A stretch of 42,925 nt of DNA from a virus, in IMG/VR virus record IMGVR_UViG_3300009506_000075, positions 1 through 42,925 of that record. One strand, given 5' to 3'. Below, one piece after another: positions 9,909-40,718 of this stretch. Position 1 is the stretch's first letter; each line of letters opens with the position of its first letter. The notes under the pieces were generated by a model. The model was given only the letters and a program-made list of their open reading frames with translations. It had not been told where the DNA came from and did not search any database. The translations under genes were made by a program, and so were the position numbers.

Positions 9909-10558
9909 CCAAATATGACCTCCGTCCCTTCTTTACGGCATCGGTGGGCACGACTTCTTGCGCTCCCCTCCGTTATGCCTTCTAATTGTGCCACCCATGC
10001 TGGTGACACTTTCGCGCACCGCTCAATGTAAGAAGTCCGATCATAAAATCGTTTACCTTTATTCCACGACTTTCGCCCAATCTGAGGGTAATGATCAGTT
10101 GAGAGTGGATGCCCTTTCTTTCGTAATCGGAACCTCATACTCGATAGGGCGCTGCGTGTGATCGCAAATCCCTCCATGAGAAGTTTCGCATTGAGGATTC
10201 GTTCCCACCATGCAAACTCAATTTGGTAAGTCCGTTGGCATTTATACGGGAGATCGTGGCCGTGTTGTCGCAACCATACCGCCCATTTTGAAACTGTAAC
10301 TTCGGTCACTTGGTACTTCACAGATAATTCTCGCAGAGTCATGTTGGGCCAATCTTTGATAAATCCATATATATCATTCCAGGGAGATGGTTGGTTTATT
10401 TCACCTTGTTGTTTTCTCCATTGTGCATATTCACGAAAACAATCTCGGCACCAAGGCGTAAGGCCGTCAAGCTGTGAACGATTTTTATAGTAGCTATCTA
10501 CTCCTTTCCACCTTCTGCACCTCGGACAGTATTTCATATCACCAACCGCTCTAGGCAT
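9905..10558 (-). CDS. Zinc-finger and helix-turn-helix DNA-binding protein
   Basis: A 217-residue protein. The N-terminus has a zinc finger typical of phage proteins: YCPRCRRWKGVDSYY, then DGLTPWCRDCFREY. A helix-turn-helix follows (MTLRELSVKYQVTEVTVSKW), then a basic region with SWNKGK, like the NUMOD3 modules of homing endonucleases. No HNH or GIY-YIG catalytic site is seen. The ATG at 10558 lies after GGAGGTTGTG and overlaps the reductase gene by 8 bases. It could be a regulator or a remnant of a homing endonuclease. Confidence 0.66.
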   Translation of the reverse strand: MPRAVGDMKYCPRCRRWKGVDSYYKNRSQLDGLTPWCRDCFREYAQWRKQQGEINQPSPWNDIYGFIKDWPNMTLRELSVKYQVTEVTVSKWAVWLRQHGHDLPYKCQRTYQIEFAWWERILNAKLLMEGFAITRSALSSMRFRLRKKGHPLSTDHYPQIGRKSWNKGKRFYDRTSYIERCAKVSPAWVAQLEGITEGSARSRAHRCRKEGTEVIFG

Positions 10559-12398
10559 CACAACCTCCTCCCACGCACGCGTATTCCCGAGCGCCGGTTG
10601 TTTGGTCACTCCTCTCGTAGTCTCTCAGTCGAGTGAAATCTATCTCTGGAAAGGCTTTCTCGGCCCTCATATATTCTTCTTCGGTGATCTCTTCGAAAGG
10701 CAACCAGTCATAGGACGGGCTTTCTTTCGGCAGGAACGAAACACCCTTCACCCTGTCCCAATGGTCATAGATCCAATCAGCAACCTTGATCCATTCATCC
10801 TCAGCCACATAGACGGTGCAGGAAGCGTTGTGCTCACACCAGTTTTCAGTGACCGAGAGATACCATTCAAGTTGATCCATGGCTGTCATATCGTGACGGG
10901 TGATCGCTCCGTCTGGTGAACGGACTGGAAAGCTCACGAGAGCATGAGTGGCCTCGTGGCCTGGGAGGTCGCGGAAAGGGACTCCTTGATCCGCGATGCA
11001 CTGGAAAAGCGGATCATTCTTTTCAATCTGCATATTTCTGAGATAAAACTTTGACCATCGAGGATGAAGCCCAGAGGAGCACCCGGCTACTTCGCTTACC
11101 GTGCCGGATGGCTTCTCACAGGTACACGCCTTGGATTCTGTGATCTCCAGTGTCTTACATGCCTTCCGCATGGTCCGCAAACAGGTGGCGAGGAGGAGCC
11201 GTTGCACTTCATCGGTGAGCACACCTGGATTGTCCATGGCTCCAGTGAAAGACACACCAAGAAGGTGCTCCTCTTCGCAATTCTGAGCCCATTCCGGTCG
11301 AAGATGTGGAAAGTTGTGCATGGTGGACTGAATTACGCCCAACCACGTCGCCGTCCGCACTTTGTCCTGAAGATCCTCGAAATCGTCTCCAGGCCGAATG
11401 GTCACTGTCGTCACATTGCAGAACTCGCGCGGTCGCGCGCTAATTTCAGCGCAGGGATTAAAACCTTTGATCAGTTTGGAACGACGGCGATGGGGTGCGT
11501 TTTTCTGGGCTGCGTAGAGATTTGCTATTCCTCGCTCACCGTTGTTGGATTTGGCGAGCTGATACCATTCCCTCATAAAATCAATCTGAGATGGCCTCTC
11601 GTGATAAATAGCCGAGTTGTTGGCATATCCGCGCCGCGGATGGTAGCCGTCAGATTTACAATCCCTCATCTGCTCATCCCAAAGATCGGAAAGAGAGATA
11701 AGGGCGCTGCGACGCACACCTCCCACCACTACCACTGAGGCGATCTCGCAGAGAATGTCATGGCACTCTAACGGGGTGAGTTTTCGGCCACCGGCACGAG
11801 AGATCTTGGTACGGGCATAGGAAAGTAATTGAAGAAGAACCTCACCACCAGAGGAGCGACCACCCATTGTGCGTAATGGCGCTCCCATTGGGCGAAGCTG
11901 GGAAGCATCGAAATAGACATCACGCCCCGAGTACCAGGTATCAATCCCGAACTGGAGGGCTTGCATCCAACCCTCTCGTGAATCCTCGATGCAGTATTTG
12001 AACGGCGTTGCGTTTTTCTGGCTTTTGATGGTCGGAAGCTGGTTGATATATTCTTCTTCTATTGAGAAACCAACTCCACACCCACACATAAGCAAATAGA
12101 GCGTCTCACTAAAAGAATCGAGGGCATCAATGGGAAGAAAGCTGCAATTATAGATACAGGCATTTTGACGCTCCGCAGCCTCTCCTGCCGTCCAGACAAG
12201 TCTCATGCTCGGAAAAACATCGAGATTCAAAAGGAACTGACGTGCCTTTTTCGCCACCTTCGCTGGGATGCGAGGATCTCTAAAAAGGAAGCCGAGAGAT
12301 CTTTCCGCTGTCTCTTCCCAGGTCTCTCGTCTGCCCTCATCCCATAGGAAGCGGGAATAATTCCTCAATGTAACAAACTGGCCCAACTGATCCATCAT
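10551..12398 (-). CDS. Adenosylcobalamin-dependent ribonucleotide reductase (class II)
   Basis: A 615-residue enzyme that reduces ribonucleoside triphosphates to deoxy forms. Active-site residues match the monomeric Lactobacillus type: N314, C316 and E318 in FNPCAEI, the redox pair C85 (NACIYNC) and C327 (FCNVT, 11 residues after C316, as in the family), and the C-terminal shuttle pair CVGGGC (608-613). It is shorter than the 739-residue prototype and has no ATP cone. It lets the phage make dNTPs without oxygen, given host coenzyme B12. It overlaps the upstream membrane-protein gene by ATGA. Confidence 0.9.
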   Translation of the reverse strand: MMDQLGQFVTLRNYSRFLWDEGRRETWEETAERSLGFLFRDPRIPAKVAKKARQFLLNLDVFPSMRLVWTAGEAAERQNACIYNCSFLPIDALDSFSETLYLLMCGCGVGFSIEEEYINQLPTIKSQKNATPFKYCIEDSREGWMQALQFGIDTWYSGRDVYFDASQLRPMGAPLRTMGGRSSGGEVLLQLLSYARTKISRAGGRKLTPLECHDILCEIASVVVVGGVRRSALISLSDLWDEQMRDCKSDGYHPRRGYANNSAIYHERPSQIDFMREWYQLAKSNNGERGIANLYAAQKNAPHRRRSKLIKGFNPCAEISARPREFCNVTTVTIRPGDDFEDLQDKVRTATWLGVIQSTMHNFPHLRPEWAQNCEEEHLLGVSFTGAMDNPGVLTDEVQRLLLATCLRTMRKACKTLEITESKACTCEKPSGTVSEVAGCSSGLHPRWSKFYLRNMQIEKNDPLFQCIADQGVPFRDLPGHEATHALVSFPVRSPDGAITRHDMTAMDQLEWYLSVTENWCEHNASCTVYVAEDEWIKVADWIYDHWDRVKGVSFLPKESPSYDWLPFEEITEEEYMRAEKAFPEIDFTRLRDYERSDQTTGAREYACVGGGCDA

Positions 12399-21948: not shown

Positions 21949-22743
21949 ATGAAAAAAAAATTCAACCGATTGAAATCAATGAAGAAAAAAATTCTAATTA
22001 GCGATTTGGAGGCATTGGGAAAGGGGGGAAGTGAAATGACACCAGATTTTCATAGTATTATCGAGACGTACCGATATGAAGATGAGAATAATTCGCAGTT
22101 TGCAAAACGCTTGGGAGTTCACCCATCTATGATTAAGTATTGGGAAAAAGGGATGATTCCAAAGCCAGCAACCGTGCGAAAGATCATCAAGTCGCTAAAG
22201 CTTGACAATCACACAGCAAAGGTACTAAAAGATGCTTTTTCGTATTGTTCTGGGAAAGGGGAAGATGGGGGGATGAAACCCAAAACGACCCCCCTTCTGC
22301 CCACAATTCACACCGATGAGCGCGCTCAAATCCTGGGAGATACCTTTGTACAGGTGCCCGTAGCGGACGCGGTGACCAAGAATAACGCGGTGGTGACCGC
22401 GCCAGAACGATCGTGGCTCAAATTCAAGATCGAGTATTTGGATGATATTGGCACACGGTATAGGAATCTCTTCCTGTTTGAAATTAGAGAGCGAACCATG
22501 GTGCCGTCGTTTATGCCGGGTGATTGTGTGTTGGTGGATACAGGGAAGCGGGTTTTGGCCGATGATGAGGTCTACCTTGTTAATTTGGAGAATGTGCTGA
22601 GACTGAAGAGATTGACCCTGCTCCCCGATGGGAAGGTGAGATTGGTTACTGATGCTGATCCTCATGGCTTCTTAGATGGAGATCCAGAGACAGACCTTGA
22701 TATTGTCGGACAAGTAGTCTGGCTTTGCAGGAAGGTGGCATAA
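21949..22743 (+). CDS. Phage repressor, helix-turn-helix plus S24-type domain, Ser replaced by Thr
   Basis: A 264-residue protein. A helix-turn-helix (NSQFAKRLGVHPSMIKYWEKG) lies near residues 48-68 and an S24/LexA-like domain near 155-262. The catalytic region reads RERTMVPSFMPGD, where the usual serine (D-S-M-E-P) is T183. The lysine is kept (K220 in RLKR), 37 residues later as in LexA. No Ala-Gly cleavage site is visible in the linker. So it may not self-cleave, and induction may use an antirepressor. The ATG at 21949 follows AAGGAGCGG. Confidence 0.85.
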   Translation: MKKKFNRLKSMKKKILISDLEALGKGGSEMTPDFHSIIETYRYEDENNSQFAKRLGVHPSMIKYWEKGMIPKPATVRKIIKSLKLDNHTAKVLKDAFSYCSGKGEDGGMKPKTTPLLPTIHTDERAQILGDTFVQVPVADAVTKNNAVVTAPERSWLKFKIEYLDDIGTRYRNLFLFEIRERTMVPSFMPGDCVLVDTGKRVLADDEVYLVNLENVLRLKRLTLLPDGKVRLVTDADPHGFLDGDPETDLDIVGQVVWLCRKVA

Positions 22744-23849
22744 TGAGCATTGAATTCCGGTGCCAATCCTGCCGTGCTTGGAACGCGCTCTCCCGGACCA
22801 CATGCCGGTCTTGCGGGAGCGCGCTCTTGCGGTATGGTCGTCGTTATCGGGTCGAGGTGCGCCGACCTAACGGTGACAAAGTGCGAAAGAGCGCGGGGAA
22901 GCGCGCAGGACTGGAAGAAGCTCGCCAGCTTGAGCATGAATTAAAAGAAATGATGAAGCGGGAATTGGGCGAAAGGTCTGAGGAACTGACATGGGGGCAA
23001 GTAACGCAGCGATATCTTCGCCAATTGGAGATTCAGGGACGTTACTTAAAGAATGCCATTCTCCACATGAGATCCAGCCTTCAGATTTTTGGTAATTGCC
23101 CGGTTTCCCACATCACCGCAGAGCGCGCCCGTGAATGGCACCTGGAACTGAGATCAAGACTCAGCCCCAAAACGTGTGACTGCTATCTTCAAAGTTGCAG
23201 GGCTGCGTGGAATGCTGTGGTGGGCGAGAAGAATCCATTTCAACAGGTTCGGTACTTTAACCCCAAGAATGAGGTAACTCGCTATCTCCATCCAGAAGAG
23301 CGTCAGCGCCTTCTTGATGCAGCGCGCCAATTTGGTAATCGATGGTATGAGTGGGTAGCGATTGGAATGGGCACCGGGTTGCGCCAAAAGAACGTCACCA
23401 GTTTGCGCCGGGACGAGATCGATTGGAAATCTGGGTATGTCAGAGTCACTGAGAAAGGTGGAGATATCTATGCCGCTCCATTGTCACCTGGGATTATGGC
23501 CCTCCTTAGATTGATCCCTGACAACGGCACTCCGTACTTTTGGTTCAATGAGAGAACAGGCAAACCGTTCTCTCACGATTGGAAGACGTGGACAAAGATC
23601 AAATGCCTTGCCGGAATCGATCCCAAGTTCAGGTGGCACGATCTTCGTCATGACTTCGGCACCAACCTCTTGAAGCACACCGGAAACCTCAAGGTCGTTC
23701 AAGATGCGCTCGGCCATGCCAATATCAAGACGACAGAGAGATACGCTCACCTTCTTCCTGAAACCCTCCGCTCGGCAATTAATGAAGTTGATCCGCTCAA
23801 ACCCCATATTGCCCACCCCCCTGCCCACCTTCACCAAAAAGATGAGTAA
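22743..23849 (+). CDS. int: Tyrosine integrase with N-terminal zinc ribbon
   Basis: A 368-residue site-specific recombinase. Catalytic residues are R214 (GTGLRQKNV), H299 and R302 (WHDLRHDFG), H325 (LGHANIKTTERYAH) and nucleophile Y334. An unusual N-terminal zinc ribbon, C7-C10 and C21-C24, precedes the arm-binding region (YRVEVRRPNGDKVRKS). The ATG at 22743 overlaps the repressor stop as TAATG, so integrase is made with the repressor from one transcript. A start six codons earlier is possible but less likely. Confidence 0.93.
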   Translation: MSIEFRCQSCRAWNALSRTTCRSCGSALLRYGRRYRVEVRRPNGDKVRKSAGKRAGLEEARQLEHELKEMMKRELGERSEELTWGQVTQRYLRQLEIQGRYLKNAILHMRSSLQIFGNCPVSHITAERAREWHLELRSRLSPKTCDCYLQSCRAAWNAVVGEKNPFQQVRYFNPKNEVTRYLHPEERQRLLDAARQFGNRWYEWVAIGMGTGLRQKNVTSLRRDEIDWKSGYVRVTEKGGDIYAAPLSPGIMALLRLIPDNGTPYFWFNERTGKPFSHDWKTWTKIKCLAGIDPKFRWHDLRHDFGTNLLKHTGNLKVVQDALGHANIKTTERYAHLLPETLRSAINEVDPLKPHIAHPPAHLHQKDE

Positions 23850-30071: not shown

Positions 30072-30743
30072 ATGAAGCAAATCAAAGAAAACACGCTCGC
30101 AGTCTCCTTCGTGTGCCCAACCGATGTTGTCGAGGGTCAGCCGGTAGTCATAACAGACGATCTTGAAGTGGCTGCAATCAGTGGCGCTGCCGACGATGGC
30201 CTTGTCGGGAATGTTGCAGCGCACGAGGCTGGCGCAGCGTCATGCACCGTTTCCACAAGATTTCGGGAGCGGCGTGATGATCGCGTGGCCGACCAGACCG
30301 ATGCGCCAGATGTGGGTCCGTTTGTTTATGATGATGCTGGTGCTGTAATCGGGTACGTCGAAGCATCGCACGTCAATCTGCCCGCTGGATTGGTGATCAA
30401 GAAACCTGCCACAATGGAGATATATTGTTCCAAACAAGGCCCATTCACCATTACCGGCAGCACCAACGATGGTTTCAAGATGCAGATTGGTGGCGAGCTT
30501 GCGGACACCATCACGCTTGCTGCGGGCAGTGATCTGACTGCGGCTGAGATTGCGACAGATATAAACGGTAAAATTAGTTACGGTACGGTGGTCGCCTTAC
30601 CGGGAAATCGGCTCAAAATTGTTGCTGACTCACCCTACCAAAACATCGCGATTCAAACCGTCGCGAACGATTGCTACTCGACCCTCGGGCTGCTTGTGGC
30701 TGACAACCAGTGCTCGCTCGTGGTCGAAACACTCGAATACTAA
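30072..30743 (+). CDS. Capsid decoration-like protein, long paralogue with inserted beta module
   Basis: A 223-residue protein. Residues 1-110 repeat the neighbour block by block (GQPVVITDDLEVAAISGAA, TRFRERRDDRV, VGPFVYDDAG), and its last residues VVETLEY match the neighbour's VVDTLEY. Between them lies an insert of about 100 residues (113-214) that has the same motif order as the repeats in the tail sheath protein: GPFTITGSTND, TLAAGSDLTAAEIATDIN, then CYSTLGL. A surface-exposed extra domain on the capsid is likely. Confidence 0.72.
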   Translation: MKQIKENTLAVSFVCPTDVVEGQPVVITDDLEVAAISGAADDGLVGNVAAHEAGAASCTVSTRFRERRDDRVADQTDAPDVGPFVYDDAGAVIGYVEASHVNLPAGLVIKKPATMEIYCSKQGPFTITGSTNDGFKMQIGGELADTITLAAGSDLTAAEIATDINGKISYGTVVALPGNRLKIVADSPYQNIAIQTVANDCYSTLGLLVADNQCSLVVETLEY

Positions 30744-30760: not shown

Positions 30761-31894
30761 ATGTCTGGTGAACTCGGATTGGCGAATTCATTCTATCGCA
30801 GGGTGTTTCGCCCGCTTCAGGAGTACCGAGGCAGTGATGCAGCTCCGGGTCATGAAATTGATCTGATTGAATTCATGCAGACTCGGGCTCTGAACGAAGA
30901 TAGCAAACCCGTTGGCCTGAAGAATACATCGGGACAGCCGATTGATTGGGAGGATATCTGGAGTGATCTAGGTCTCGATCCCGCAGGTGCCAACCTGAAC
31001 AACCTCATCTCCTACCAGGGAGATGATATGAAATATCTCGCCCCAGAGATGGTCCGCGCCTTTGTCCTTGAGGGACTTGAGGCAGACGCGAATCACATGG
31101 ATCTCTGCGCCGGTCAGGAGAATGTTGACAGTTTTCTGATCACTGCTCCTTGGATCGAAATGCAGAACGAGACCCCACAGACGGTTGCAGAAGCCGAGCG
31201 TATTCCCGAGTCCGGGGTTACGTGGGGTGAAAAATCGGTCAAGCTGACCAAAGATGCGATCGCATTTCACTGGACCGATGAACTGATGCTGACCGTTCGT
31301 CTTCCTCTCCTTCGTTACTGGCTGAGGAAGGTGGGTGCTCGCCTCGCGGAGCGGCTGTACACCCGTGCAGTTACCACGCTGCTCAATGGTGATCAGGCCG
31401 ATTCCAGTGATGTCTGTTCTGAGATTGGTGTTGATACCGCAGGAACCATCGCTTTCAAGGATTTCCTGAGAGCATGGCTTCGTGGTCGTCGGATCGGTCA
31501 GCGATGGGAAACCCTCATTATGAATGAGGTTACCGCTTTTGACGTGTTTCAGATTTCGGAATTCAGTGACCCGCAGGGCGCTGGTTCTGTTGTGACACGT
31601 CTTGAGCAACGCAACCGGATCATCCCGGCAAATATGCCGTCCTTCATTACGGGCGTGCTGGATGACAACAATGTCATGCTGCTCAACCGTGCGTTCGGGA
31701 TGCTTTTCCTCTCGATGCGTGGCCTTATGGTTGAGAGCGAGCGGATCATCATGCGGCAGATCCAGGGAACCGCGGCCTCGATCATAAGTGGTTTCTTGAC
31801 CATAGACAACAATGCTCGACTGATACTTGATGGAGAGACCGCATACTCCAGCAAGGGCTTTGATCTGCTTACCAACATGACACCGACCGTGTAA
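30761..31894 (+). CDS. Major capsid protein (HK97 fold)
   Basis: A 377-residue protein following the decoration genes, with AGGAG in front. It shows the major-capsid pattern of an extended N-arm, a long helix (LTVRLPLLRYWLRKVGARLAERLYTR split by short breaks) and a mixed C-terminal domain (GMLFLSMRGLMVESERI). The high-expression position and size fit. No delta-domain-only start is seen because the protease-scaffold is a separate gene. Assignment is by order and fold pattern. Confidence 0.8.
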   Translation: MSGELGLANSFYRRVFRPLQEYRGSDAAPGHEIDLIEFMQTRALNEDSKPVGLKNTSGQPIDWEDIWSDLGLDPAGANLNNLISYQGDDMKYLAPEMVRAFVLEGLEADANHMDLCAGQENVDSFLITAPWIEMQNETPQTVAEAERIPESGVTWGEKSVKLTKDAIAFHWTDELMLTVRLPLLRYWLRKVGARLAERLYTRAVTTLLNGDQADSSDVCSEIGVDTAGTIAFKDFLRAWLRGRRIGQRWETLIMNEVTAFDVFQISEFSDPQGAGSVVTRLEQRNRIIPANMPSFITGVLDDNNVMLLNRAFGMLFLSMRGLMVESERIIMRQIQGTAASIISGFLTIDNNARLILDGETAYSSKGFDLLTNMTPTV

Positions 31895-34425: not shown

Positions 34426-36978
34426 ATGGGACTTGGCGCTGCACGAGTTATCTATACAATCCAAGACCTTAGCCTGTATATCGATCAATTACTGCGTGGT
34501 TACGTCATCGCAATTGTTGAGGCCGAACGCGGACCCCTTTGGGAGCCCACTCCGGTCACAAGTTGGGATGAATATGAGAGACTTTTCGGTCGCACATTCG
34601 ACGGATCTACAGATCCACTGGTACTGAAAACAGGGCTCCAGCAAGGGGCGAAGTTTTTAGTGATAAGGATCGTTAATTGTACCGATACCTCTGATCCATC
34701 CTCGATGACCGCATCTGCCGCATCAGTAACTCTGGTCGATCGCAACGACTCAGCAACCCCCGGCTCAATCCGCAGTGATGAAGGACCGTTCAATATCGTT
34801 GCTCGTGAAGGTGGAAGTCATACTGGTTCCGAAGCTGGTGACTTCACGTTTTCGAGCGGCGTGAATGACGATATTTCGCTAAAGGTATGGGGAGAGGCAT
34901 CGTCCCAAGATGTCACCCTGGTTGGGGCAAATCAAACAGCGGCAGAAGTAGCCGCACAGATCAACGCTGGCACCACAGGCATAACTGCTTCTGTAGTAAG
35001 TGGTGCTGGAGCCGTTGAATACGTTAAAGTCAAGGCAAATCCAGTTCAGGTTGACGGAACCGTTGCCGAGACATTTGCCATTACTACCGATTCCAATGAC
35101 AAGGTGAAGGTAAAGGTCGGTGGTGCGGCAAGTCAGACCTTCACGCTCACTCAGGGAGCCACACAAACCGCTCAAGATATTGCGGACGACATCAACGCCA
35201 CAGCGATAGATCTCACTGCATCGGACGATGGTTCTGGTCATGTAAGACTTACGTGTGACAATGATGGCGATAGCCTTGAGATCGAAGCTGTCACCTATGA
35301 TGCTTATTCTACTCTGGGATTCAGCACGGGCACCACGTCTGCTTCCCTGGAAATCGTGACTTGCTCCACAGATGCCTATGATGTGTTGGGGTGGACGGTA
35401 GGAGTCTACAGCGCCATCGAAGGCACTGATCGTCTTGTTGTGGCGGTAGATGGTGGAAGCGACCAGACCTTTGTGTTGTCAAGCGGCCTCACACGTACCG
35501 CCTACCAGATCGCAACAGAGATTATGCAGAGCCTCTCGGGTGCCACAGCTTATTCAAGCGGCGGCAAGCTCACCATTGTCTCTGACACCTCTGGAGCTTC
35601 GTCATCTGTTCAGGTGCAGACGCTTTCTACCGCAGACACACCGCTCGGATTCGATAACTCCCTTCACAGTGGGAGCGATTCTGGAACACCGCAAAACACC
35701 TTGACGTTCAATTCGAAGAATCCTGGCGCATGGAGTAACTACCTCAAAGTTCACATCTACGAAGCTGACCTGAATCCAGGCACCGCTTTTGATGTTCGGA
35801 TCTCATACTCGAATCAGGGTGGCCTGAATGAATATTTTGCCGAGCTGGATATGGACCCGACCTCGGATAGGTACTGCGTCGATTACATCAATGAGCGATC
35901 TCGTCTTGTTGAGGTGGAGGATGAGGACTCTTCGAGCACTGGCTACAAGAATCGGCCCGCCGAGAACGAAGATGGATCTGCATTGACTGGCGGCGGCGAC
36001 GGAAATGCTTTGACTGACGCTGATTATATCGGTGATGAGAATGCTCAGACCGGCATGTATGCGGCAGACAAAACGGATTTGTCCATCGATATCATGATTC
36101 CGGGCAGCTCCAGCAATACCGTTATTGCGGCTCTTGCTGCTTACTGTGAAAATCGTGGTGATCTCGTCGGCTACGCTCAGATACCGGCAGGTCTTGATCC
36201 GGGCCAAGCTGAAGATTGGAGAATGGGCAATTCGCCATATTCTCATGAGGCATTCAATTCCCATAGGCTGGCACTGTTCTTTGGGCGACCGCTAGTCTAC
36301 GAATCCCGAACCGATTCCAAGAAGTACATTCCTGCGCTCGGCATGCTGGCTGCGTGTATTAGTAAAACGGATACCTATTACAATTACTCTTACGCGCCGG
36401 TCGGTCCACGTCGAGGTACTGTTGATTTTGTTGAGGGTCTTGACTTCAACCTGGGCGACTATCCTGGTTATCAGGATGAAATGGCCGAGTTCCAGATCAA
36501 CAGTTTGATCATATCCAGAAAACAAGGTATTGAGGGCGCTGTATTTTGGGAGCAATATACGACACAACGAGCGGCATCGGCACTGCGCGATCTCAATGTT
36601 GTGCGGTTCCTGACGATGATGAAAAAGGTGCTCCTTCCCGCGCTTCGCATGTTCTTGTTTGAGCCCAACCACCCGGATACATGGCGCGAACTCCATCGGA
36701 CCATCGAACCACAGCTTCAGCTTTGGAAGGCCCAAAGCGCCATCTATGATTATTACCTGCAAACTGACCGCGATGCCTGGTTTGATGGCGGCGAATTGGT
36801 GAACGCGGTGCTCAACACTGGTCTGGAAATCGATCAGGGCATCTACCATGCCAGAGTACTTGTCCAGCCTACACGGGCAATTCGTTATCTCATGTTCGAA
36901 TGCGGCGTGATGAGAACCGGCGAGGCATTCAGTAACTATACTGAGATGAAGACATTGCCAGGTTGGGCGAGACGATAA
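34426..36978 (+). CDS. Contractile tail sheath protein with triple inserted repeat
   Basis: An 850-residue protein. The sheath core is at the ends: residues 1-105 (PLWEPTPVTSWDEYERLFG) and about 422-850 (KNPGAWSNYLKVHIYEAD, then the C-terminal QPTRAIRYLMFECG). Between them lie three copies of a beta module of 80-110 residues (about 139-219, 220-327, 328-415). Each carries TL-x-x-G...TA-x-x-IA-x-x-IN or a close variant, and two end with LGF/LGW. The same module is in the long decoration protein. The sheath shortens to drive the tube through the cell envelope. Confidence 0.88.
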   Translation: MGLGAARVIYTIQDLSLYIDQLLRGYVIAIVEAERGPLWEPTPVTSWDEYERLFGRTFDGSTDPLVLKTGLQQGAKFLVIRIVNCTDTSDPSSMTASAASVTLVDRNDSATPGSIRSDEGPFNIVAREGGSHTGSEAGDFTFSSGVNDDISLKVWGEASSQDVTLVGANQTAAEVAAQINAGTTGITASVVSGAGAVEYVKVKANPVQVDGTVAETFAITTDSNDKVKVKVGGAASQTFTLTQGATQTAQDIADDINATAIDLTASDDGSGHVRLTCDNDGDSLEIEAVTYDAYSTLGFSTGTTSASLEIVTCSTDAYDVLGWTVGVYSAIEGTDRLVVAVDGGSDQTFVLSSGLTRTAYQIATEIMQSLSGATAYSSGGKLTIVSDTSGASSSVQVQTLSTADTPLGFDNSLHSGSDSGTPQNTLTFNSKNPGAWSNYLKVHIYEADLNPGTAFDVRISYSNQGGLNEYFAELDMDPTSDRYCVDYINERSRLVEVEDEDSSSTGYKNRPAENEDGSALTGGGDGNALTDADYIGDENAQTGMYAADKTDLSIDIMIPGSSSNTVIAALAAYCENRGDLVGYAQIPAGLDPGQAEDWRMGNSPYSHEAFNSHRLALFFGRPLVYESRTDSKKYIPALGMLAACISKTDTYYNYSYAPVGPRRGTVDFVEGLDFNLGDYPGYQDEMAEFQINSLIISRKQGIEGAVFWEQYTTQRAASALRDLNVVRFLTMMKKVLLPALRMFLFEPNHPDTWRELHRTIEPQLQLWKAQSAIYDYYLQTDRDAWFDGGELVNAVLNTGLEIDQGIYHARVLVQPTRAIRYLMFECGVMRTGEAFSNYTEMKTLPGWARR

Positions 36979-38424: not shown

Positions 38425-40718
38425 TGGATCAGACCATCGGAATACAATTTGAGGCTAAGGGCTCACAAAAGGTCATTGACGAATTTGACCGTATAGAGCG
38501 TGGAGCTATTCGCCTCAGTAATAATTTCCGCATGATCGCTACCTCATTGGGTGAGATGGCGGGAGCGGTGAGGACGCTGAGTTCTGCGGTTGGGATTTTT
38601 AACAACCGCATGAAGAGTATGACCGGGTTTATGCCCGCCAGAGGGCGAGGTCGAGGGATGACCTCTTTCTCTCATGCGGCATGGGCCATGGCTGGCGGTC
38701 GTCGCGGGAAGCAGACCATGATGTATGCACCGCAGCCTGTTGCGATGGCACCGGCACCGATTCCTGGTTTTGTGATGCCACCCTTTGAGCAACCTTCAGT
38801 TGGGGGTGGTGGCAAAGGCAGGGGTAGGGGCACTGCCAAGGGAGGGCAAGAGCGTGGTTTTCTCAAGCGGTTTATGTTCGGTGGGCCTGGTTCGATGATG
38901 GGCGCTGGCTTCTTTCTTGTGCGGTGGATCATCTACCACCAGATTTTTAAAGGCTTGAGCAATTTGCTGACCGAGGTTGTGCTCGGAGGTGCTAGAGAAG
39001 CAGTTGATACTGCCCTCGTTGAACTTTCTGCTATTGGATTCGATAAAAGACAGAAAGATATGGCTTTCCGGGCTGGTGCTAACTTTGCCCGCAATTTCCC
39101 CATGTTTACGACTGAAGGTTACATCCAGGCCATGTCCCAGATCGGGTCGGCCATGGGTGTTAATGAGGTGGGCTTTGGAACACTGCAAAGGGGCACTGAA
39201 TTAGCATTTATGGGTGGTGCCTTGAGCAAGATGTCGCCAGAAGAATTTGGCAAACTCCTTGCCACAACCCTAGAAGCCACGCGCAGGAATAAAGAATTCG
39301 AGGGCATGGGGAGCGTTGAGCGGATGGAGCGAATAACGGCGCAACTGATTAAGGCGATTGAGGTATCCATGGCATGGGGGCCAGACTTTGCCAGTGCTTT
39401 TCGCCACATGCTTCCCGGCTTCCAAATGATGGGATGGGATCTCTCTCGATCGCTTGCTTTTGTCGGATCGCTCAAAACGGCTGGCTTCCATCCAGGCCAG
39501 GTTGGTCGATTTGGAAGGTATCTAGCAAGTCAAGGTATCGAGCCCATGGCGAAGATGTATATTCGCGAAGCTGGGGTTGGTATGAAGGTTCAGGGCACGC
39601 CTGAACAGAAGCGATACGCGAAATCATATAATGCGGCTCTTCAATTGGCAGCACAGAAGATTATTGCAGAAAACCTCAAAGAAAATATGGATAAAACCGT
39701 CATCTGGTACAGCAAAGCCCTAAAGAAATGGCGAGACAAAGGGTTCACCTATAAGCAACTTGGCGAGGCAGAACGTTGGGGTCCAATGATGTCGAAGATA
39801 GGTGAGGTCTATGAAGATGTGGCCCGAGAGACAGAGCACAAACTCAAAATTGCCAATATTGGGGAGGTAGAACAGAGGTTCCAAGAATCTATGGAAGCGG
39901 TGGGATTGATCAAAAAGAAGATCATGGCAAATATGATGTTCTTTTTTCAATCGCTTATCGACATTCCTCGCGCACTTAAAGTAGGTGAATTTTTCTCTGC
40001 AACTTTTGGAGATATTGCTGATTTGCGTTTTATGCTGCAAACATGGCGCAAAGGTGAATATAAAGGTAATCTAGCAGAGGATATCGCTGTTGGCGGGAGA
40101 GTCTGGCAGGAGATGGCAAATAGATGGGGTGTTGATGCGGCAAACCTGCGAGCAGAATATGTGAGACTTGGTATGGCTGGCGAGGGATGGAAGCAAACAT
40201 TTACCACATTTAAGATCTTTATTGACGAAATTGATAATCTCTTTGGTCAGCGTGGAGTCAGTAAACCCCTACAAGAAGCTTATCAATCTATTGTTTCAAT
40301 GAACGCTGGCACAATAGGAGAGGGCGCGAAGAGTATTGCTGAATTTATTGGTATGACAAAGAGGGAGATTGACGCAATTAACCAAGATATTGCTAAGGCG
40401 GCGCAATTACTCAAGGGCGCACCGCCAGCAACAGAATTTTACAATGTGCCAGAAGGGTATGAAGACCCGATCACGCGCGGGATTAAAGAACTACACAAGG
40501 GCATTGCTCAACGCCATCGAGAGTCATTTTTGATGCCGGGGAACGATATAACCTGGGGTAGTAGCGCCGATATTTATGGGACCGCCGCACCACGAGTGAA
40601 TGTGAACGTCTGGGTTGGCAATCGAGAGATAAAAGATCTTGTAGTGGAAACCATTCAAGAAATGGCAGAAACTACGGGCCAATCTGCTTCCAGTCAATTT
40701 GACTACCCTGTGCAGTAA
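38424..40718 (+). CDS. Tape measure protein
   Basis: A 764-residue protein starting from TAATG at 38424. The N-terminus is helical (VIDEFDRIERGAIRLSNNFR), followed by a G/P/M-rich region near residues 75-155 and a hydrophobic segment near 160-185 (MGAGFFLVRWIIYHQIFKGL). The rest is helical. It sets tail length; at the general 0.15 nm per residue the tail would be near 115 nm. It is directly after the chaperone genes. Confidence 0.88.
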   Translation: MDQTIGIQFEAKGSQKVIDEFDRIERGAIRLSNNFRMIATSLGEMAGAVRTLSSAVGIFNNRMKSMTGFMPARGRGRGMTSFSHAAWAMAGGRRGKQTMMYAPQPVAMAPAPIPGFVMPPFEQPSVGGGGKGRGRGTAKGGQERGFLKRFMFGGPGSMMGAGFFLVRWIIYHQIFKGLSNLLTEVVLGGAREAVDTALVELSAIGFDKRQKDMAFRAGANFARNFPMFTTEGYIQAMSQIGSAMGVNEVGFGTLQRGTELAFMGGALSKMSPEEFGKLLATTLEATRRNKEFEGMGSVERMERITAQLIKAIEVSMAWGPDFASAFRHMLPGFQMMGWDLSRSLAFVGSLKTAGFHPGQVGRFGRYLASQGIEPMAKMYIREAGVGMKVQGTPEQKRYAKSYNAALQLAAQKIIAENLKENMDKTVIWYSKALKKWRDKGFTYKQLGEAERWGPMMSKIGEVYEDVARETEHKLKIANIGEVEQRFQESMEAVGLIKKKIMANMMFFFQSLIDIPRALKVGEFFSATFGDIADLRFMLQTWRKGEYKGNLAEDIAVGGRVWQEMANRWGVDAANLRAEYVRLGMAGEGWKQTFTTFKIFIDEIDNLFGQRGVSKPLQEAYQSIVSMNAGTIGEGAKSIAEFIGMTKREIDAINQDIAKAAQLLKGAPPATEFYNVPEGYEDPITRGIKELHKGIAQRHRESFLMPGNDITWGSSADIYGTAAPRVNVNVWVGNREIKDLVVETIQEMAETTGQSASSQFDYPVQ

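Follow-up and report, generated by a model that had tools for sequence, protein, structure and literature searches.

A domain inserted in a contractile tail sheath has been described for phage XM1 (InD of gp6; 7kh1, PMC10457771), and the module reported here matched it in both profile and Foldseek comparisons. The XM1 authors likened InD to domain D3 of the flagellar cap protein FliD (PMC10457771), and called it unique to XM1, where it is present as one copy, with neither self-nesting nor a capsid copy described. FliD D2/D3 and the outer domains of flagellins (6iwy, 5h5w, 8erm) also matched the module in profile and fold. FliD resembles it further in having a nested chain path, D1>D2>D3, and the Helicobacter pylori protein carries two extra similar domains, D4/D5 (PMC8306008), but these are axial proteins of the flagellum rather than of virions, and are not known to have passed from gene to gene. 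According to the paper on phage Adele, the same fold occurs in tail sheaths, podovirus nozzles, auxiliary capsid proteins, FliD, and flagellin (PMC12846349), and the lateral domain of phiTE/Adele-type sheaths, together with auxiliary capsid proteins (9khy, 7qof, 8giu, 8i4m), has the fold of our module. Phage Ig-like domains, in the account of Fraser 2006 given by PMC9230969, are likewise exchangeable accessory domains carried by several virion proteins; our module, however, is not Ig-like by Pfam and has a helix.

That this fold decorates the heads and tails of different phages is therefore already known (PMC12846349). Those cases are fold likenesses across phages, whereas the locus described here holds sequence homologues in the head and tail genes of a single genome, with one copy nested in another and a likely move from head to tail, and these three features are new here. 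No description of a self-nested insertion in a sheath was found in the literature searched, which took in few subscription papers.

The stretch analysed (hereafter the window) is the whole 42,925-base IMG/VR virus record IMGVR_UViG_3300009506_000075. It probably belongs to a temperate myovirus, judging by eye from its ORFs, which include an integrase-like (22725-23849) and a repressor-like one (21949-22743). Among the virion genes, those for the portal and head protease come first, followed by the two decoration genes and then by those for the major capsid protein, sheath, and tail tube; PHROG matches back each of the portal, protease, capsid, sheath, and tube assignments. In the early region, a 615-aa ORF on the minus strand (10551-12398) looked ribonucleotide reductase-like by eye only. 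The features relevant to this study are listed in the table.

Table. Features of the decoration, capsid, and tail sheath genes in the window, with the evidence for each.
Feature	Position	Strand	Evidence
Short candidate decoration paralogue without module, 122 aa	29691..30059	+	Phage_cement_2 E 0.0043, under Pfam cut-off; synteny
Long candidate capsid decoration (cement-like) paralogue, 223 aa	30072..30743	+	N-terminal part and VETLEY tail common to short paralogue and relatives
Decoration module, residues 113-214 (core 133-213), insertion site 2	30408..30713	+	iE 1.6e-16, relatives-only profile; genome search E 4.7e-30
Major capsid protein (context)	30761..31894	+	PHROG 3922 E 8e-24; PF25209 E 4.3e-6
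Tail sheath protein, 850 aa (744-746 aa in relatives)	34426..36978	+	PHROG 23 tail sheath E 2.7e-41; alignment with relatives
Separate lead-in strand DEGPFNIVA, sheath residues 118-126	34777..34803	+	Lead-in profile 12.6 bits
Copy 1, N-terminal part, residues 133-204, sheath type 1	34822..35037	+	Profile positions 1-47 at residues 148-194; right end approximate
Copy 2, a whole module of decoration type within copy 1, residues 205-306 (core 225-306)	35038..35343	+	Relatives-only profile iE 2.1e-22; classifier; no counterpart in relatives' sheaths
Copy 1, C-terminal part, residues 307-330, after copy 2	35344..35415	+	Profile positions 55-81
Copy 3, residues 331-416 (core 335-415), sheath type 2	35416..35673	+	iE 8e-22, relatives-only profile; tree with relatives' second sheath module

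The sheath assignment covers the core of the protein, as PHROG 23 matched over residues 25-835 and PDB sheaths matched at E 3e-17. The first-pass annotation had placed three repeats at 34840-35671 of the sheath ORF (residues 139-415) and a fourth at 30408-30713, within the long decoration paralogue, and both locations were correct. The repeats proved to be real when searched with a profile built from nine modules of relatives only, without any window sequence, and the same profile gave no convincing fifth copy in the window. A profile made from sheath modules alone scored the window decoration protein at 43.8 bits, while 500 shuffles of the insert reached at most 9.0 bits; with the matches to the relatives-only profile, this puts the repeats well beyond chance. 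The sheath and decoration modules are homologous, their profiles being significantly related in hhalign (99.7%, E 5e-26).

In one respect the earlier description of the sheath was mistaken: copy 1 had been taken to lack its last element, but that end, 'SLEIV..DAYDVLGW', lies beyond copy 2. Copy 1 is split, with profile positions 55-80 resuming at residues 304-329, and copy 2 is thus nested within it; the 'LGW' is part of copy 1. When rejoined, the halves span profile positions 1-81 at 62.1 bits and group with the first sheath modules of relatives (support 91/79, not starred), while copy 3 groups with their second modules (100/100). The window sheath was aligned first with four and later with six relatives, and it exceeds theirs by 106 residues. 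Every fully covered relative (L001, L002, L003, L009, L018, and L021) has two sheath modules, and the truncated sheath of L010 has two in its covered part. Given the two-module relatives and the additional 106 residues, the simplest explanation is a single insertion into copy 1. The sheath gene of L004 (L004:8001-10108) is in two frames, with the break midway through the second module, which is either a sequencing error or genuine.

The decoration genes lie between the protease and major capsid genes, the long paralogue directly preceding the latter. Family matches, including that of the L018 orthologue to a PHROG head decoration family (E 3.6e-4), and synteny make both paralogues candidate decoration proteins of the PF09956 cement type, a weak assignment. 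Scans of viral contigs with the decoration proteins returned nothing, or the same contig only. The module had been proposed to be an insertion in the long paralogue, which was borne out, and alignment with short paralogues added that relatives use two separate sites in this protein: the window has the second only, and L010 and L021 the first only, with no short paralogue observed beside the decoration gene of either.

Module number in the decoration protein varies from 0 to 4 among relatives, with none in L003 and L018. The 522-524 aa decoration proteins of L001 and L004 have two N-terminal halves, a whole module, and two C-terminal halves, with the halves joining at profile position about 20-22. 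This pattern, A,A,[AB],B,B, reads as a putative nest three deep, A1[A2[A3B3]B2]B1. The phage of L018 has a module elsewhere, in a 624-aa tail-fibre-like DUF4815 protein (L019:2025-3896; record G007, 40206-40457); it classifies as sheath type 1 (see below) and shares 'GTSVTADAIA' with the first sheath module of the same phage. A phage of this group also begins L021 (CAJBEZ010000060.1), a 137-kb contig assigned to a bin of uncultured Desulfomonile sp., and its sheath is 99% identical to that of L009. The bin hints at the host but does not prove it. A tblastn search of 50,697 phage records with a consensus module and the decoration proteins gave no match, the lineage or the required sensitivity lying beyond its coverage.

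The source of copy 2 was examined with a classifier based on profiles of first sheath, second sheath, and decoration modules, which, with each module's own lineage left out, assigned 23/23 known modules correctly. Rejoined copy 1 was classified as sheath type 1 and copy 3 as sheath type 2, while copy 2 scored 96.3 bits as a decoration module against 78.7 and 20.1 bits for the sheath types. Its best pairwise matches were six decoration modules (57-47% identity), followed by sheath modules (best 44%). As copy 2 goes with the decoration modules, and copies 1 and 3 with the two sheath types, a capsid module has probably moved into the tail gene. AU tests did not reject copy 2 as a sister of sheath modules (p 0.09-0.24), so that derivation from the decoration gene is likely but not proven.

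A tandem duplication within the sheath gene would dispense with any transfer from the capsid: copy 1 would have given rise to copy 2, lost its own end, and acquired a duplicate of the end of copy 2. The two ends do match, as the 24-residue C-terminal piece of copy 1 has 12 residues identical to the end of copy 2, including SLEI and DAY, and placing copy 2 with sheath copy 1 was among the groupings that the AU test tolerated (p 0.24). However, this requires three events where a single insertion would do, copy 2 fits the decoration type better by 17.6 bits, and the ends have different affinities, the resumed end of copy 1 being nearer to sheath type 1 (mean 49.0, against 41.9 to decoration modules) and the inner end of copy 2 nearer to decoration modules (mean 57.0, against 45.8). 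At the DNA level they are only 47% identical. Nesting also arose again, independently, in L001 and L004. Duplication within the sheath gene is for these reasons considered unlikely.

We regard it as fairly probable that a single module of flagellar fold has been copied in frame into loops of virion proteins and into its own copies, and that a decoration-type copy 2 entered copy 1 in this way. The module, of roughly 80-100 residues with beta-alpha structure, would have been copied inside the genome, both to exposed loops of virion proteins that are not related to each other and to loops of copies already present. The window sheath would have inherited two modules and then acquired a third, of decoration type, in the loop that joins strands 4 and 5 of copy 1, so that the order became copy1-N / copy2 / copy1-C / copy3, and the long decoration paralogue would have received one more copy in its last loop. 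Additional copies may be tolerated because the loops that hold them are remote from the working core.

The proposal of the first-pass annotation, a mobile module common to capsid and tail, is well supported, as the number and insertion sites of modules vary among close relatives, copies lie within copies, and the extra copy in the window is of decoration type. 'Mobile' here means in-frame duplication into loops. At the junctions of copy 2 there was no direct repeat of at least 6 bases, and its GC content showed no clear difference and no sign of recent import, and so gave no indication of a mobile element; likewise, neither an element nor a target-site repeat or recombinase could be found for the module. 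These phages indicate that one surface part can be reused across the whole particle, and that the traffic of a domain between head and tail genes can be traced within a genome while intermediates survive in relatives. It becomes possible to test how phage surface domains are built up, and how modules can be nested without breaking the sheath or capsid.

Strands of the form GPFxI stand before the modules, and the likeness noted earlier between EGPFNIV and QGPFTIT, ahead of the sheath and decoration modules, was upheld by a profile of this lead-in strand. The window sheath has exactly three strong lead-ins, at residues 118, 136, and 213 (12.6, 11.9, and 14.9 bits; next best 4.7), and the one at residue 118 has no module immediately after it. 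A comparable series of lead-ins precedes three successive modules in the decoration protein of L002. One possibility is that the residue-118 strand belongs to copy 3 as its first strand and has been displaced, in which case copy 1 would itself be nested in copy 3. A broader reading, to which we give slightly less than an even chance, is that the module multiplies inside a single phage genome through insertion into itself and moves among head, sheath, and tail-fibre genes, building nests three deep; the window sheath insert would then be copy3[copy1[copy2]] with a displaced GPFNIV strand. The 'GTYAV/GVYSA' segment right before copy 3 could instead be the first strand of that copy; it scores 10.1 bits in L001 but falls outside the best six lead-in sites of the window sheath. 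Since a match to so short a strand carries little weight, and this second candidate is at hand, the nesting of copy 1 in copy 3 is put forward as a conjecture.

The function of the modules may be adhesion to the host or to other surfaces. Copies facing outward on both capsid and tail would give many weak contacts with host or environmental surfaces, and the decoration proteins of L001 and L004, with roughly 400 residues added, presumably extend these outward; the inserts of the decoration proteins are placed in loops near the C-terminus. In known structures, extra sheath domains are situated at a distance from the tail tube, and stability or weak adhesion has been suggested as their role; for similar sheath domains authors have proposed adhesion as well as virion stability (PMC9230969). 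The modules might instead be structural filler, neutral or stabilising for the virion and without an adhesive role, which would be compatible with the evolutionary account above. Their freely varying copy number and position, down to the decoration proteins that have none, would suit this, as would the additional sheath domains of T4, which are reported to be nonessential, and those of phage 812, reported to be stabilising (PMC9230969). Against it stand the retention of two sheath modules in every fully covered relative and the conserved core motif, although stabilisation is still compatible with both. Such filler is a serious possibility that we rate somewhat short of even, and weak multivalent surface contact appears to have a slight edge over stabilisation alone or neutral tolerance.

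Profiles and Foldseek support assignment of the module to the outer-domain fold of flagellar proteins, as in FliD D2/D3, FliC D2/D3, and the XM1 sheath InD. The AlphaFold model of the window sheath has a strand-strand-helix arrangement followed by further strands, with pLDDT of about 65-86 in the modules and 56 overall, and in Foldseek it matched FliD 6iwy (E 4.9e-4, prob 0.99), the XM1 sheath 7kh1 (prob 1.00, 69 columns, rmsd 2.9), FliC D2/D3, and more FliD structures; TM-scores across the whole model were low for these flagellar-fold matches. The model of the L004 decoration protein (pLDDT 51) matched FliC D2/D3, Vibrio flagellins, the XM1 and phiTE sheaths, and a Patience capsid entry, with no E value under 0.001. 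MAFFT misaligned the split relatives, and alignment A4 was therefore used for the sheath model; it sets the copy-1 end of relatives on copy 2, which disfavours showing the nest. Neither model resolved the nests, and with models this weak the nesting is a matter of sequence comparison. An Ig-like identity was considered and rejected, as no curated Pfam Ig-like family reached its cut-off and every module has a predicted helix.

By sequence, the module profile reached FliD (E 1.8e-9) as well as FlgL, FlgK-, and FlgE-like genes in genomes related to the Desulfomonile bin (Pfam identified FliD and the flagellin-type ends; FlgK and FlgE were assigned by eye), and the XM1 sheath was found by PDB sequence search (E 3.4e-4). 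With hhalign, sheath modules aligned to FliD modules at 96.6% (E 6.7e-10) and to all flagellar modules at 98.2% (E 5.6e-14). The presence of the module in these flagellar genes, and the proposal of the XM1 authors that their domain was acquired from a host flagellar cap, would fit separate gains from host flagellar genes, or from other phages, in place of copying within the genome. The modules of this group are, however, 40-64% identical to one another in their best matches, with a sheath-decoration E of about 1e-26 compared with 1e-9 to 1e-14 for flagellar modules, and repeated horizontal gain is judged very unlikely. Under the preferred account of copying within the genome, the first module may still have been gained from flagella in an ancient event, and a common origin of flagellar outer domains and phage surface domains becomes testable.

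No window module matched Pfam Flagellin_IN (PF07196), and the protein nearest to its cut-off (20.3 of 22.7 bits) was a membrane protein of L026. This is one of two genomes, L026 and L029, of the set related to the Desulfomonile bin that encode proteins of 210-227 aa (L026:1174-1854, L029:1387-2016) with a lysine-rich N-terminus and a module between apparent membrane helices. Single modules were also present in proteins of 424-689 aa from L027, L028, L030, and L042, which have motifs like 'ENLFPHVTEEERTTGLLRYRKFFIKK' and are possibly prophage structural proteins.
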